Of a stretch of DNA of 64,000 bases, positions 34,929 through 44,818 are shown one piece after another (position 1 is the stretch's first letter; each line of letters opens with the position of its first letter). The DNA is from an uncultured Sphingomonadaceae bacterium (GTDB taxonomy: Bacteria > Pseudomonadota > Alphaproteobacteria > Sphingomonadales > Sphingomonadaceae), in assembly GCA_947501695.1 (NCBI GenBank), contig CANMWO010000001.1:992001-1056000 (forward strand), in the 5' to 3' direction. Made by a program: the position numbers and the translations under genes. Below the pieces are notes generated by a model, which saw only the letters and a program-made list of their open reading frames with translations, was not told the origin of the DNA and searched no databases.

Positions 34929-35070
34929 TTTGACACTCCGTGGAATTAAGCGTGCTCGATAGCGGGCCTCCTTTGTTATTACCAGTAGCAACATGCAATG
35001 AAGATTGCATTCGTTCGTAAATCGGTGCAGGTTAATAGAAATTAACGATAAAATAACGGGGAGATTGGAT

Positions 35071-36033
35071 ATGAAGGCACGAGTTTTAGGTGCGATAGCG
35101 GGTGGTCTAGTTCTGGCGACAGCGATGCCAGCGCAAGCGGAGCGTGATACCGAACGTTTTACCTCTCTGACGGTATTTGGCGATAGCCTTGTTGATGCTG
35201 GGAATATTTTTACTGCCACTGGTGGTGCCATTCCTTCAGCTGCGAACGGCTATTTCAACGGTCGCTTTACTAATGGCTATGACTACACAGACCTGCTCAG
35301 TATTGAGCTTTTTGGTGCACCCACGGTTGCTTCCTTGCAAGGCGGAACCAATTTTGCATTTGGTGCTGCCCGGGCTTCGAACACGAACCCACAGGTTCCT
35401 GATTTCGGTGAGCAGCTTGGTCTCTATGCTGGCTATTTGGCAGCGGGTAATGAAGTCGATAGGAACGGCCTATATATCCTGAACTTTGGCGGTAATGATC
35501 TTTTCAATGCGCCGGATGACCCCGCCGATGCTGATATTTTCATTCGTCAAGCCGCGCAAGATTATGCTGCGGGTGTTCAGGCTTTGAACGATATTGGCGT
35601 AAGAAATGTCTTGTTGACAGGGTTTCCTGTCGCTGGACCATTGGGGTTCAGTGCTGAGGGATATTTGACACAGGAATTAGCAGCGTTGAGCCTTACGGCT
35701 GACACGACTTTCCTACGTTACAGCTATTTTGATTTTTTTGATCGTGTACTAACCGATCCTGGAGCGCTTGGTTTGCCGACACAGAGGCTGGACATCACTT
35801 GCCAAGCCGCCGGACCGGCAGCGATTGCAAATGGCTGTGATGGTATATTTTCGTTTGACGGAATTCATTTTTCAGCACCGATTCATGAAGCCTTGGCCCG
35901 GGATATTGATAGCCAGTTTAACGTGCTGGGTTCTGTACCAGAGCCGACAACTTGGGCGATGATGATATTGGGTTTCTTCATGACAGGGACCGCTATACGC
36001 CGACGCCAGAAAATTCGGGTCAGCTACAGCTAA
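35071..36033 (+). CDS. SGNH/GDSL hydrolase with PEP-CTERM sorting signal
   Basis: FGDSLVDAGN block I, NFGGNDLF, DGIHFSAPIHE block V; C-terminal VPEPTTWAMMILGFFMTGTAIRRR. Confidence 0.9.
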   Translation: MKARVLGAIAGGLVLATAMPAQAERDTERFTSLTVFGDSLVDAGNIFTATGGAIPSAANGYFNGRFTNGYDYTDLLSIELFGAPTVASLQGGTNFAFGAARASNTNPQVPDFGEQLGLYAGYLAAGNEVDRNGLYILNFGGNDLFNAPDDPADADIFIRQAAQDYAAGVQALNDIGVRNVLLTGFPVAGPLGFSAEGYLTQELAALSLTADTTFLRYSYFDFFDRVLTDPGALGLPTQRLDITCQAAGPAAIANGCDGIFSFDGIHFSAPIHEALARDIDSQFNVLGSVPEPTTWAMMILGFFMTGTAIRRRQKIRVSYS

Positions 36034-38365: not shown

Positions 38366-39280
38366 TTATTGAATTTTTTCGATTTTATACCCGCGCTTTT
38401 CTAGCATGGCTTGAACGGAATCGGGTCCTACCAAATGTGCAGCGCCAACGGCGACGAACGACAGGCCGGGGCTTTGCAGTTTTTTGTCTAACTGTTCCGT
38501 CCAATCCTGATTGCGCGCGACTAGAAGCTTTTCGCGGGTTTTAGGGTCTTCCAATATTCCGCCGCTGGAAAGTTCCACGATCATATCCGTGTCACCCGAA
38601 ATCCAGGCATTGAACAGTTTCTCAAAGGAGCTCTTGGTATCGGCTGCTTCCTCGACAACGCTGGTTAGCATGTCGCGCTGTTGGGATTCTGGCAATGTAT
38701 CAAAATAACCCAGTTGCTGCTCGATAGTTTCCAAGCCTTCGACAGGTTTCTTAAACTCACCAAATTGGGCCACCAGCTTTTTCTCAACACCTTCGCTAGG
38801 ATCGAGCCCTAGATTATTGGTTTGCGCCGATGCTAAAGATAAAGCCGCGGCCCAGCTTTCCATGCGATTGAGCGCAAATTCAGGTATATTGCTCTTGTCG
38901 ATAACCGCATCAAGATCACCACGTAGCGATGGTTTAACTCGCTTTTCAATTTCTGGCTGACCAGGCGAAATGGCGAGTTTTGCGAATATCTTGGCCGCAT
39001 TTTGTGTGTCTTCGAGGCCAAGCACTTCGATAACCAACTTGTCAGAGCTTTTTAACGCCTCTTCAAGGAGGGGAGTACGCCAGTTCACATCTTTTGGTAA
39101 TATGTGAATGGTGCCAAATAAATAGGCCTCACCAACCTGCTCAGGCTCGGTCCCCGTAACTTTCCAAAGAGCTGGCTTGCCGTCCTTTAGCGTGCCTAAT
39201 TGCATGGGTTCTGGGGCGTTAGAGCAGGCCGTCAAGCAGACAGTCGCGATCAGCGTCAATAAGGTTTGAATATATTTCAT
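38366..39280 (-). CDS. TraB/GumN-family lipoprotein, paralogue A
   Basis: Lipobox LTACSN; GTIHILP and GAAHLVG motifs, LEKRGYKIEKIQ end. Confidence 0.9.
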   Translation of the reverse strand: MKYIQTLLTLIATVCLTACSNAPEPMQLGTLKDGKPALWKVTGTEPEQVGEAYLFGTIHILPKDVNWRTPLLEEALKSSDKLVIEVLGLEDTQNAAKIFAKLAISPGQPEIEKRVKPSLRGDLDAVIDKSNIPEFALNRMESWAAALSLASAQTNNLGLDPSEGVEKKLVAQFGEFKKPVEGLETIEQQLGYFDTLPESQQRDMLTSVVEEAADTKSSFEKLFNAWISGDTDMIVELSSGGILEDPKTREKLLVARNQDWTEQLDKKLQSPGLSFVAVGAAHLVGPDSVQAMLEKRGYKIEKIQ

Positions 39281-39347: not shown

Positions 39348-40283
39348 CTAATATTTGATCCGCTCGACACGAAATCCGCGTTTCTTAAGTTGGACCTGCA
39401 AGCTGGCGTCTCCGGCCAAATGTCCCGCACCTACTGCCATGAAAACTGTTCCCGGCTGATCCATACGGTCATCAACCCAAACAGCCCAATTGGCATTTCG
39501 ATCGGAAAGAAGTGTCTCATAAAGGATTTTCTCTTCCAAGCCAGCATTCATGAGTTCTGCCAAAGCGTCGATATTGGCATTGGCCCAATGCGCCACCATA
39601 TTTTCCATACCATCAGCCATATCGCCGATGGACGCGACATTGAAGTTCAGGAAACGAATTTGGACATCTTCCGGAAGGTTATCGAAGAAACCCAATTGCT
39701 GCCGAGGCGTTTCAAGGCCGATGATTTTCAAATTCTTGGCCTTGGCGTTAGATATGAGTGATTTTTCGACGCCGCTATTTGTATCATAGCCATTTTTCAT
39801 CAACGGAACGAGAGACATGCTAACACTGGCAAACCAGGGGTCGAGTGGATCAAAAGCGTTTAGTGGCAGTTCTAGTGAAGTCATGGCGGCTTCATATTCT
39901 GTGCGGTCTTCCGCATTAAGTTTGTCGCGCAGCGGAACGCCAGTTGTGTCAATTGCGAGTTCACTCACGATTTTCATCATCTCGGCGGGCTCCGGCTCGA
40001 TCATCTCGATGACCAATTCATCCGAAGCCTCAAACGAATCTTTTACGGCTTCGTCAAACCAAGTGAGACCGGGCTTCAGAATATGAACCGTGCCAAACAG
40101 ATAGATTGTTGTATCTTCATCCTTAAGCACCCAGAGAGCCGGGTCCGGATCGTCCGGTATCGTGGCAATTTCAGCAGCTGCGGGCGCAGTCTCGCTGGCT
40201 GACTGCGGGGGTGTAGCTTGGCAAGCCGCCAATCCCAAAATGAGAGGCAAGGATAATAGGGGAGAAAACCAGCGGCGCATCAT
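39348..40283 (-). CDS. TraB/GumN-family lipoprotein, paralogue B
   Basis: Lipobox LAACQA; GTVHILKPG and GAGHLAG motifs, LKKRGFRVERIKY end. Confidence 0.9.
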   Translation of the reverse strand: MMRRWFSPLLSLPLILGLAACQATPPQSASETAPAAAEIATIPDDPDPALWVLKDEDTTIYLFGTVHILKPGLTWFDEAVKDSFEASDELVIEMIEPEPAEMMKIVSELAIDTTGVPLRDKLNAEDRTEYEAAMTSLELPLNAFDPLDPWFASVSMSLVPLMKNGYDTNSGVEKSLISNAKAKNLKIIGLETPRQQLGFFDNLPEDVQIRFLNFNVASIGDMADGMENMVAHWANANIDALAELMNAGLEEKILYETLLSDRNANWAVWVDDRMDQPGTVFMAVGAGHLAGDASLQVQLKKRGFRVERIKY

Positions 40284-40457: not shown

Positions 40458-42557
40458 ATGAGCCAAGTCCATGCCCGCACCTGCCATATTTGTGAAGCCA
40501 ATTGCGGTGTTTTGGTTGAGGTCGAAGGGCGTGAAATCCTGTCGATTAAGGGTAACCCTGATCATGTCTTAAGCCGCGGACATATCTGCCCAAAGGCAAC
40601 AGCTATAGCCGACCTGCAGGATGATCCTGACCGGTTGCACAAGCCGCAGAAAAAAGTGAATGGCCAGTGGCAGGAAATTGGCTGGGAAACGGCGTTTCAG
40701 GAAATCGCCGTTAAGCTGAAAGACTTGAAGGAAGCTGCTGCCAAGCCTGCTATGTATATGGGTAACCCGAGCGCGCATGATTATGGCATTTCGACGCAAG
40801 TCAGCACGTTGCGCCGTGCCATGGGTCTGAAAAATATCTATTCCGCTTCGACACTGGACCAAATCCCGCATCATGTCGTCCAATATCATATGTATGGGCA
40901 TGTCAGCCTTGCCGCCGTGCCGGATATTGATCGCTGCCAATATCTGGTTATCGTTGGCGGTAATCCGGCCGCTTCCAATGGTAGCATCTGGACTGTACCG
41001 GACTTCAAGAAACGCGTGAAGGAAATGCAGGCGCGTGATGGCAAGCTGATCGTGATTGATCCTCGCCGGACCGAGACCGCGAAACTGGCGGACGCACATC
41101 ATTTCGTGAAACCTGGAACGGACACGGCATTGTTCATCGGTATATTGAAAGCGGTCTTTGACGACGGGCACGCCGATGTTTCTCGCCTCGAAGCCATTAT
41201 GGATGACAGTTGGGATAACATCGAGCCAGCTATTGCCGGCTTTGATATGGAACAGCTGTCCGCTCATTGTGGTATTTCGGTCGACGATATGCGGGAAATG
41301 GCCGCGCAATTGGGCGCCGATCAACCGGCCGCAATTTATGGGCGCATGGGTGTTTCGGTTTGCGAGTTTGGAACACTCAACCAATGGCTGATTCAGGTCA
41401 TTAACATCGCGACGGGCAATTTGGACCGCGAAGGCGGTACGATGGTGCCAGAGCCTGCGCTGGATACAATTAACCTGGTGGGCAGGGGCTCTGTGCGCAA
41501 GATCGACACCATACGTGGTGAAATGCCGGTAGTCATGGGTGAGTTACCGACTATTACGCTGGCGGACGAATTGCTGCGTGAGGATGAAGAGCGGATCCGG
41601 TCGTTGTTCGTTATTACGGGCAATCCTGTGCTTTCCTCGCCTGATGGAGCCAAGCTGGATCGCGCGTTGGAGAAACTTGACCTGATGGTCTCGTTTGACA
41701 TGTACGTCACCGAAACCAGTCGCCATGCCGACTATATTCTTCCGCCATGCGGGCCGCTGGAAAAGGACCATTATCCGTTCTTCTTTGGACCGCTGGCAAT
41801 CCGCAACTACGCGAGCTACTCGCCTGCGATTTTCGACATTCAGGATGGCGAGAAAGCTGATTGGGAAATTATTGCAGAGCTGGCGCGCGAGATATTGGCA
41901 ACCGACGGTCAGGATGTGCCCAATATCCGGGAGCCGCGGGACGTGCTCGACAATATGTTGCAAAGCTCGCCTGCTGGCCTGACCTTGGCCGAGGTCGAGG
42001 CCGCACCGAACGGGATTGATCTGGGGCCGTTGCGTTCTTGCTTGGCGGACCGTTTGCTGACGGAAGACAAAGAAATTCAATGTGCGCATCCTGATTTTCT
42101 CGCCGAGTTACAGCGTTTTGGCGGTTCACTTGATGACATGCGTTCGGATATGCTGCGCCTTATCGGCCGCCGCCATGTGCGGAGCAATAATAGCTGGCTT
42201 CATAACAGCAAGCGCCTGCTCAAAGGGCCGGACCGCTGCACCTTGATGATCCATCCCGATGATGCCGCCAAGCGCGGTCTGTCTGATGGCGACATGGCGG
42301 TAGTCGAAAGCCGTGTGAACAATGTCGAAATCGTTGTGGCTGTCACGGATGACGTCATGCCCGGCGTGGTGTCTATCCCGCATGGCTTCGGTCATGGCCG
42401 TGAAGGGGTGGGCTTGTCTGTCGCAGCCTCAAAACCGGGGGTCTCGATCAATGATTTGACTGATCCGACCCGTTTCGACCCGTTGTCCGGCAACGCCGTA
42501 TTGAACGCTACGCCAGTCACTGTGGAGCGAGCAGTCGAGATGGTGGCCGCTGAGTGA
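40458..42557 (+). CDS. Molybdopterin-dependent oxidoreductase (4Fe-4S, FdhF/NapA-like superfamily)
   Basis: N-terminal CHICEANCG...GHICPKA cluster, MGNPSAHDYG, LFVITGNPVLSSPDG; C-terminal molydopterin dinucleotide-binding region SIPHGFGH. Confidence 0.92.
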   Translation: MSQVHARTCHICEANCGVLVEVEGREILSIKGNPDHVLSRGHICPKATAIADLQDDPDRLHKPQKKVNGQWQEIGWETAFQEIAVKLKDLKEAAAKPAMYMGNPSAHDYGISTQVSTLRRAMGLKNIYSASTLDQIPHHVVQYHMYGHVSLAAVPDIDRCQYLVIVGGNPAASNGSIWTVPDFKKRVKEMQARDGKLIVIDPRRTETAKLADAHHFVKPGTDTALFIGILKAVFDDGHADVSRLEAIMDDSWDNIEPAIAGFDMEQLSAHCGISVDDMREMAAQLGADQPAAIYGRMGVSVCEFGTLNQWLIQVINIATGNLDREGGTMVPEPALDTINLVGRGSVRKIDTIRGEMPVVMGELPTITLADELLREDEERIRSLFVITGNPVLSSPDGAKLDRALEKLDLMVSFDMYVTETSRHADYILPPCGPLEKDHYPFFFGPLAIRNYASYSPAIFDIQDGEKADWEIIAELAREILATDGQDVPNIREPRDVLDNMLQSSPAGLTLAEVEAAPNGIDLGPLRSCLADRLLTEDKEIQCAHPDFLAELQRFGGSLDDMRSDMLRLIGRRHVRSNNSWLHNSKRLLKGPDRCTLMIHPDDAAKRGLSDGDMAVVESRVNNVEIVVAVTDDVMPGVVSIPHGFGHGREGVGLSVAASKPGVSINDLTDPTRFDPLSGNAVLNATPVTVERAVEMVAAE

Positions 42558-42619: not shown

Positions 42620-43747
42620 CTAAGGCATGCGTTCGAGCTGATAGCCCCTTTTCTCCAGCGCGGTTCGCAGATTGTTTTCGCCGTATAGATATTCCTGACT
42701 GACGATAACAAGACTGGCCCCTTCATCCTCCAGCATTGCGCCGATTTTGCCCGACCAGTTTTTCAATCGGTTCTGGCGAATATGCTCGTAAAGGTCGCTG
42801 AGACCTTCTGTCTTGACCGGCGGGGCTTCTGGCGGCTCGCCTTTGGCCCAAGCAACTCCTTGATGCTCTTGCGCAGTCAATGGTCCAACTCGGCCGTAAG
42901 GACCACGTTTTCTGTTTCTATATCGCTGAGATTTTTCCACCGTCAATTCCGCTCGGGTAAAAGCGTTGAGCCACTTTCGTTGCTTCTTCTCATCGATATC
43001 GTTTAGTAGATCAATCAGGTGTGACGGCTCTTCCAGCCCATCGACCTTGAGGTCGCGATCTTTAACTGCATTGGTTATTTTATAGTCGAGATACTGATTA
43101 TTGCGCCCGGGCTGAAACATCCGGTCGGTGTCGGCAATAAGGGTAACGAGCAGCCACGTCGGCATGAAATCACCAATAACCAAAAAGTCGCTCTTCAAAT
43201 CCCCTTTAATTCTTTCAAACAAGCCAGGATCAAAGCGATCTTCCACTAGGTCGCGATCATGGCGGATGAGTTTGCGAAAAGCTTCGCGTTCATTCTGCCG
43301 TCGCGTTTCCCGGTCTCTTTTATCGTAATAAACGGTTTCGAAATATACCTTGTCTGCGCTTTCGAAAGCGGTTGCAATGGCTTGGCTCTGCCACTTTATT
43401 CGACTCGAAAAACCTTCAATTCCGGCGAATATATAGATGGTTGAATCCGCATCGCTCATTTTCCAAAGCGCCGGGCTGGGGGTAAACTCAAAGACTGCCT
43501 TATAGGCGGCTTCGCGTTCTTTACGCTCTTTTTCAGCTTGTTTAACGGCTTCTGAGTTGCTGTGAGACGGTGTTGGTGTCGCATCTCTGGCGGCTTCGGC
43601 AACTGCGGCTTCGGCTGCCGCTGTTGCTGCTTCTATAGCTTCTTCGACGGCAGTTTTTTGTGCAGACGCGGGGCTGGCGAGCGGGATAGAGGCGGTTAGG
43701 GCGCAAAGAGCAACAAACCGAGACGACGCAAAAATGGATTTAATCAT
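42620..43747 (-). CDS. TraB/GumN-like protein, divergent paralogue C lacking GxxH motifs
   Basis: SPALWKMSDADSTIYIFAGIEG aligns by eye with the PALWKV..GTIH region of A and B; C-terminal LEKRGYQLERMP matches paralogues. Start taken at MIKSIFASS. Confidence 0.75.
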   Translation of the reverse strand: MIKSIFASSRFVALCALTASIPLASPASAQKTAVEEAIEAATAAAEAAVAEAARDATPTPSHSNSEAVKQAEKERKEREAAYKAVFEFTPSPALWKMSDADSTIYIFAGIEGFSSRIKWQSQAIATAFESADKVYFETVYYDKRDRETRRQNEREAFRKLIRHDRDLVEDRFDPGLFERIKGDLKSDFLVIGDFMPTWLLVTLIADTDRMFQPGRNNQYLDYKITNAVKDRDLKVDGLEEPSHLIDLLNDIDEKKQRKWLNAFTRAELTVEKSQRYRNRKRGPYGRVGPLTAQEHQGVAWAKGEPPEAPPVKTEGLSDLYEHIRQNRLKNWSGKIGAMLEDEGASLVIVSQEYLYGENNLRTALEKRGYQLERMP

Positions 43748-43864
43748 TTGAAATCGTTGAAATATATTGACTGAATGCAGGATTAACATCGTCGTGCCAA
43801 ATACGTCATATGGCCGCATTAAAGGATATGGGTTCTTGACCCGTGCGACACCATAAGCCAAAGC

Positions 43865-44818
43865 GTGGCCGACCCTATTGCACACCCTATTTTATTGGCG
43901 AAGAAAGCTATCACCTTGACCGACCAGAAGCCTCTCAGCTTCCAGCAGATCATCCTGAAACTCCATGATTATTGGAGCAATCAGGGATGTGCGATCTTGC
44001 AGCCGTACGACATGGAAATGGGTGCGGGGACCTTTCATCCCGCAACCACCCTAAAGGCGCTTGGTCCGGACCCATGGAATGCTGCTTTTGCGCAGCCTTG
44101 CCGCCGGCCTACGGACGGCCGCTATGGGGAAAATCCCAACCGGTTGCAGCATTATTATCAATATCAGGTGATCCTGAAACCCTCGCCGCCGGATATCCAG
44201 CAGTTGTATCTCGACAGCCTGACCGCGATCGGCATTGATCCGATGCTCCACGACATTCGCTTTGTCGAGGATGACTGGGAAAGCCCGACACTGGGCGCCT
44301 GGGGTCTGGGCTGGGAAGTCTGGTGCGACGGCATGGAGGTGACGCAGTTCACCTATTTCCAGCAAATGGGCGGTTTTGACTGCAAGCCGGTGGCTGGCGA
44401 ATTGACTTACGGGTTGGAACGGCTCGCCATGTATATTCAAGGCGTCGATAATATCTATGATCTGGATTATAACGGTGCTGGAGTCACTTACGGCGATATC
44501 TTCCTAGATAATGAGAAGCAGATGTCGGAGTGGAATTTCGAGGTCGCCAATACCGAAACGCTGTTTGACCTGTTCAACAAGGCGGTGGGCGAATGCGAAA
44601 ATTGCCTCGAGGCAAAACTGCCTATTCCGGCCTATGAGCAAGCGATCAAGGCGAGCCATGTATTCAACCTCTTGCAAGCACGCGGCGTGATCTCTGTGCA
44701 GGAACGCGCCAGCTATATGGGCCGCGTCCGGGATCTCGCGAAGGGTAGCTGTGAAGCCTATATGACGAAGAACGCCGAAGACTGGAAGTTGCGTCATCCG
44801 AAATGGAGCGCGGCATAA
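43865..44818 (+). CDS. glyQ: Glycyl-tRNA synthetase alpha subunit
   Basis: [44 protein letters not shown]. Confidence 0.97.

Follow-up and report, generated by a model that had tools for sequence, protein, structure and literature searches.

A glyQ-adjacent TraB/GumN-family protein of Sphingomonadaceae without GxxH motifs

Little is known of what bacterial TraB/GumN proteins do. VvRRSP and the Ere-type enzymes, which are placed in the same proposed TIKI superfamily as the TIKI-type TraB/PrgY/GumN proteins (PF01963), are active enzymes with a 2His/2Glu set, and leucine at any one of these residues abolished cleavage by VvRRSP (PMC6254334). The C1/C2 domain of the Pasteurella multocida toxin (PMT) has the superfamily fold without this catalytic set (PMC6254334). 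The protein described here, C, likewise lacks the two histidines; the PMT domain is a cytotoxin domain, distant from C in sequence, and serves as a precedent through its description in that paper.

The DNA analysed (the window) is a stretch of 64,000 nucleotides from an uncultured Sphingomonadaceae bacterium, and contains exactly three PF01963-type genes, A, B and C, which are the only ones in the host genome. The original prediction held that C is a paralogue of A and B that has lost both GxxH motifs, and a pseudo-enzyme that might act as their regulator or partner. The features of the locus are as follows.

38366–39280, minus strand: A, intact TraB/GumN lipoprotein (GTIH/GAAH); PF01963 E = 2.8e-66, lipobox read from sequence
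39348–40283, minus strand: B, intact TraB/GumN lipoprotein (GTVH/GAGH); PF01963 E = 3.8e-72, lipobox read from sequence
40458–42557, plus strand: molybdopterin oxidoreductase gene between B and C; PF00384, PF01568, PF04879
42620–43747, minus strand: C, 375-aa TraB/PrgY/GumN-family protein, predicted to be secreted, without GxxH motifs; ORF, PF01963 E = 2e-25, orthologues in three other genomes
43661–43747, minus strand: putative Sec signal peptide of C, residues 1–29, predicted cleavage ASA|Q
43478–43657, minus strand: N-terminal linker of C, residues 31–90, Ala/Glu-rich, then charged
43412–43429, minus strand: lost motif 1 of C, FAGIEG (residues 107–112); FGT[IV]H in A/B
43337–43339, minus strand: E137 of C, Glu kept in all C and C-prime (see below)
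43205–43324, minus strand: charged segment of C, residues 142–181
43031–43033, minus strand: E239 of C, in GLE, kept; followed by H243, new and invariant in four C
42767–42769, minus strand: R327 of C, kept; its Asn partner is lost (RN in A, B and C-prime)
42680–42703, minus strand: lost motif 2 of C, VSQEYLYG (residues 349–356); VGA[AG]H in A/B
43916–44818, plus strand: glyQ, glycyl-tRNA synthetase alpha chain, divergent from C; PF02091 E = 1.3e-145, putative start taken at TTG 43916

The C gene and its product

C is a single ATG-initiated reading frame of 375 codons on the minus strand, with the coordinates originally predicted. Similarity among four orthologues begins at MI[KR], which supports the start codon; as all four agree on start and frame, a misread start or a frameshift hiding the GxxH motifs was rejected. 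The PF01963 profile matches residues 93–373 over its full length (1–263 of 263) with 90.6 bits, against a curated cut-off of 26.8 bits, bearing out the predicted family membership; the corresponding scores are 224.5 bits for A and 243.7 bits for B, and the profile also matches all eight C and C-prime sequences tested. The likeness to PALWK...D.TIY.F and the C-terminal EKRGYxLERM, first aligned by eye, was also reproduced, C carrying PALWKMSDADSTIYIF and EKRGYQLERM.

In common with the family, C has PALW, TIYxF, E137, GLE, R327 and the C-terminal RGYxLER, but it lacks both GxxH motifs, GVE and the Asn of RN, and has two additional segments, each of which had been foreseen. The Ala/Glu-rich linker reaches 58% A+E within 36 residues (28% in A, 33% in B) and is poorly conserved among orthologues (20–40% invariance). 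The charged segment is 62.5% K/R/D/E/H, as against at most 37.5% in A or B, and is partly conserved among C orthologues (FRK[LI]IRHDRD.VE.RF.PGLF). A and B carry lipoboxes (LTAC and LAAC), while none is seen behind the putative signal peptide of C, which reads as a soluble, Sec-exported protein.

A search by sequence for solved structures of TraB relatives gave no credible hit. A model of C built from nine sequences had a pLDDT of 52.9, and one of B had a pLDDT of 77.4 and a pTM of 0.76; Foldseek returned no significant PDB match for either.

C is a separate transcription unit, divergent from glyQ and parted from B by the opposite-strand oxidoreductase gene. A promoter scan gave nothing exceeding shuffled sequences. 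The window also encodes a GDSL lipase-like protein with a C-terminal PEP-CTERM sorting motif (35005–36033; PF00657, PF07589).

Ancestry beside glyQ

Three genomes of other genera (G110, G067 and G052) carry TraB genes in tandem, in which the glyQ-adjacent copy is divergent from glyQ, has intact motifs and ranks first or close to first among the matches to C. We call this subfamily, found beside glyQ within the same bacterial family, C-prime (for example L101, L102 and L103). A profile search of 401 family genomes, combined with earlier loci, gave 27 C-prime sequences from other genera, with glyQ nearby in the retrieved loci. C shares with them its position next to glyQ, its divergent orientation, and MP and WAxG features, but GxxH is present twice in 27/27 C-prime and absent in C. 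With glyQ as the anchor, C is the positional orthologue of C-prime. In G002 (L096/L102), a genome from outside the genus, the order A-B-oxidoreductase-C-prime-glyQ is that of the window and the motifs are intact (GTVH/GGGH); the active site was therefore lost on the lineage leading to the genus of the window.

Phylogenetic analysis gave the same ancestry. C and C-prime form one clade against 24 A/B-type TraB proteins with branch support of 95/96, and in a wider tree a constraint joining C to four C-prime sequences beat a free quick search by 11.9 log units of likelihood. C is 21–24% identical to the four C-prime proteins directly compared with it. C-prime alone as a group has support of 68/35; with C on a very long stem (about 2.8 changes per site), the tree is compatible with a position of C either beside C-prime or inside it. 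Synteny and tree together rule out a recent duplication of A or B. The description of C as a paralogue that has lost GxxH was thus right as to the loss, whereas its ancestor was a member of a third subfamily and not A or B.

This ancestry bears on whether C could partner A, B or both, as a regulator or as a structural component such as a dead subunit in a mixed complex. The three proteins belong to one fold family and share a neighbourhood, their N-termini mark all of them as secreted or envelope proteins, and pseudoenzymes often regulate active relatives. However, the neighbourhood was inherited from an ancestral tandem that included an active-site-bearing C-prime, so proximity is not evidence of partnership. 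A, B and C share no operon, C lacks the lipobox of the other two, and most of the genus has A and B without C. We consider a partnership unlikely, if conceivable in the four species with C; because C is its own divergent unit, separated from B, and A/B are kept where C is absent, the proposal of a regulator or partner found no support.

A TraB/GumN gene adjoining glyQ is widespread in this bacterial family (27 loci in many genera; L101–L126, and window 43747–43916), and we know of no functional link between the two genes. One in-frame TGA interrupts each of two C-prime matches (L104, L126), suggestive of gene decay or of faulty assembly in their genomes. In most genomes of the genus, and in G002, the molybdopterin oxidoreductase gene lies between B and C/glyQ; it was not found at the locus in G110, G067, G052 and G163.

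Residues lost, kept and new in C

In every alignment made, FAGIEG and VSQEYLYG of C fall on the GxxH columns, opposite FGTIH/VGAAH in A and FGTVH/VGAGH in B. The four C orthologues read FAGIE, FAGIE, FAGNR and FGATN at the first column, and VSQEY, VSQEY, VSQKY and VNQEY at the second. Both histidines are therefore gone in 4/4, as predicted for C itself, and the motif-less form is shared by all four genomes. Position 111 is E, E, R and N, while position 353 is Tyr in all four, within a conserved SQ[EK]YLYGENN or NQEYLFGENN. Among about 108 aligned TraB sequences, loss of both motifs is confined to the C orthologues, so it is not due to chance. Glu111 was rejected as a substitute metal ligand, since the position is Arg and Asn in two orthologues and so holds no conserved replacement; the second site is fixed as Tyr.

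The losses extend beyond the two motifs. Where C-prime is conserved at 90% or more, the residues lost from C include G108 (kept only in G154), T109, H111, the GVE motif (219–221, now YLD), N328 of the RN pair, W334, R338, G350 and H353; of these, GVE, the Asn of RN, R338 and G350 had not been noted before. C keeps P90, P92, A93, W95, Y105, W119, E137, P196, E239, W300, A301, G303, R327, W331, G343, V349, G356 and R373. Such a pattern is expected if the fold is retained and the chemistry gone. As regards the 2His/2Glu set, both histidines are replaced and E137 is kept.

The replacement of both histidines in 4/4 orthologues and the free variation at position 111 argue for the predicted pseudo-enzyme, and hydrolytic activity is probably absent. 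Mutation of either catalytic histidine abolishes the activity of VvRRSP, a distant superfamily enzyme, a result that would extend to TraB proteins by family analogy (PMC6254334).

Alternatively, C could still be an enzyme, with a site rebuilt from H243 (by E239), H322 (near R327), H163 or Tyr353. All four C proteins have H163, H243 and H322, which are absent from the aligned C-prime, and for this reason we retain a rebuilt site at low probability. E137, E239 and R327 are also retained, and the second-motif segment QxYL[YF]GENNLR remains conserved among the four. Against this, residue 111 is free to drift, GVE and RN have been lost too, and the invariance covers four sequences from one clade, which makes it weak evidence; we know of no TraB/GumN family member that uses such a site. 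We hold it improbable that C is an enzyme of this kind, and equally so that, once the GxxH site was lost, its fold acquired in this single clade a new centre for catalysis or ligand binding around H243/E239 and H322/R327.

Distribution, constraint and role of C

C was found in four of the 33 genus genomes: that of the window (G000), G173 (83% identical), G178 (69%) and G154 (55%); L034 and L035, which came up when public species genomes were scanned, correspond to the copies of G173 and G178. It is missing from the other 29, and is therefore dispensable; A/B-type genes were detected in 28 of these. Matches to C in the remaining genus genomes are at the level of A- or B-type genes, and one 67%-complete genome has no match at all. 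No other genome among 151 of the order has a close relative of C at E<=1e-13, and none was found in the viral contigs searched.

A tree built from four neighbouring proteins places the carriers in one part of the genus and calls for three presence/absence changes; G174, the sister of G178, and an eight-species group lack C. In these C-less genomes, 81–93 bases separate the oxidoreductase gene from glyQ, measured between their aligned ends, with no remnant of C seen in the gap, and the TTGACCC...GCCAAAGC stretch upstream of glyQ is kept. The count of changes alone cannot separate gain from loss, but since C shares its position with C-prime, loss is the natural reading of its patchiness.

The C-less loci L074 (G174), L066, L068, L076 and L092–L095 have an identical 81-base oxidoreductase–glyQ spacing. 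As G174 groups with the carrier G178, a single deletion allele may have spread by recombination. A weak match to C residues 4–116 (L097, G171:C20; E 4e-4), with two stops, probably reflects the low-complexity linker.

This patchy presence, with its three changes on the genus tree, and the faster evolution of C relative to A and B are what a functionless gene would show if caught decaying ahead of frameshifts. The coding sequences speak against it. Pairwise dN/dS of C (NG86, YN00) is 0.13–0.28, higher than for A, B, glyQ and the oxidoreductase (0.02–0.08) and well below 1; the closest pair (G000/G173) has a dS of 0.39–0.52 and a dN/dS of 0.18–0.28, and dS is saturated for more distant pairs. 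The frames are free of internal stops in all four species, whose C proteins are as little as 55% identical. Neutral substitution walks at the smallest distance (0.26 per site) stayed stop-free in 1/1000 runs, and at larger distances in none. Purifying selection thus acts on C, if less strongly than on A and B, and the gene is no drifting relic, although its constraint is looser. A pseudogene is ruled out by dN/dS and the neutral simulation, and we give decay in progress little credence.

We consider it likely that C is a constrained descendant of C-prime with a dismantled active site: a secreted, non-catalytic pseudoenzyme, probably with a binding role. The loss of both histidines while the frame stays intact in four related species points to a dead enzyme that was probably reused for a function other than cutting. 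By synteny and tree, the ancestor was the third TraB/GumN gene beside glyQ, whose site is still intact in other genera. On the branch to the genus of the window, C lost the histidines of both GxxH motifs, GVE and the Asn of RN, while core residues of the fold, together with E137, E239 and R327, were retained. The gene still encodes a protein predicted to be soluble and secreted, and it is kept by purifying selection where it persists, although most species of the genus lack it. Its most likely role is to bind without catalysis in the periplasm; least certain is the partner, which may be the former substrate of C-prime (a peptide or envelope ligand), bound without being cut, or the surface of a periplasmic protein.

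Pseudoenzymes as such are common, and C is a well-documented case of pseudoenzyme conversion within a known family. The glyQ locus offers a natural series, from intact C-prime in many genera, through a site-less yet constrained C in one clade, to clean absence in close relatives. If C did rebuild its centre, the intact-motif relatives at the same locus would allow a before-and-after view of how a TIKI-fold enzyme is repurposed. Comparison of C with C-prime could separate binding from cleavage in the TraB/GumN family.
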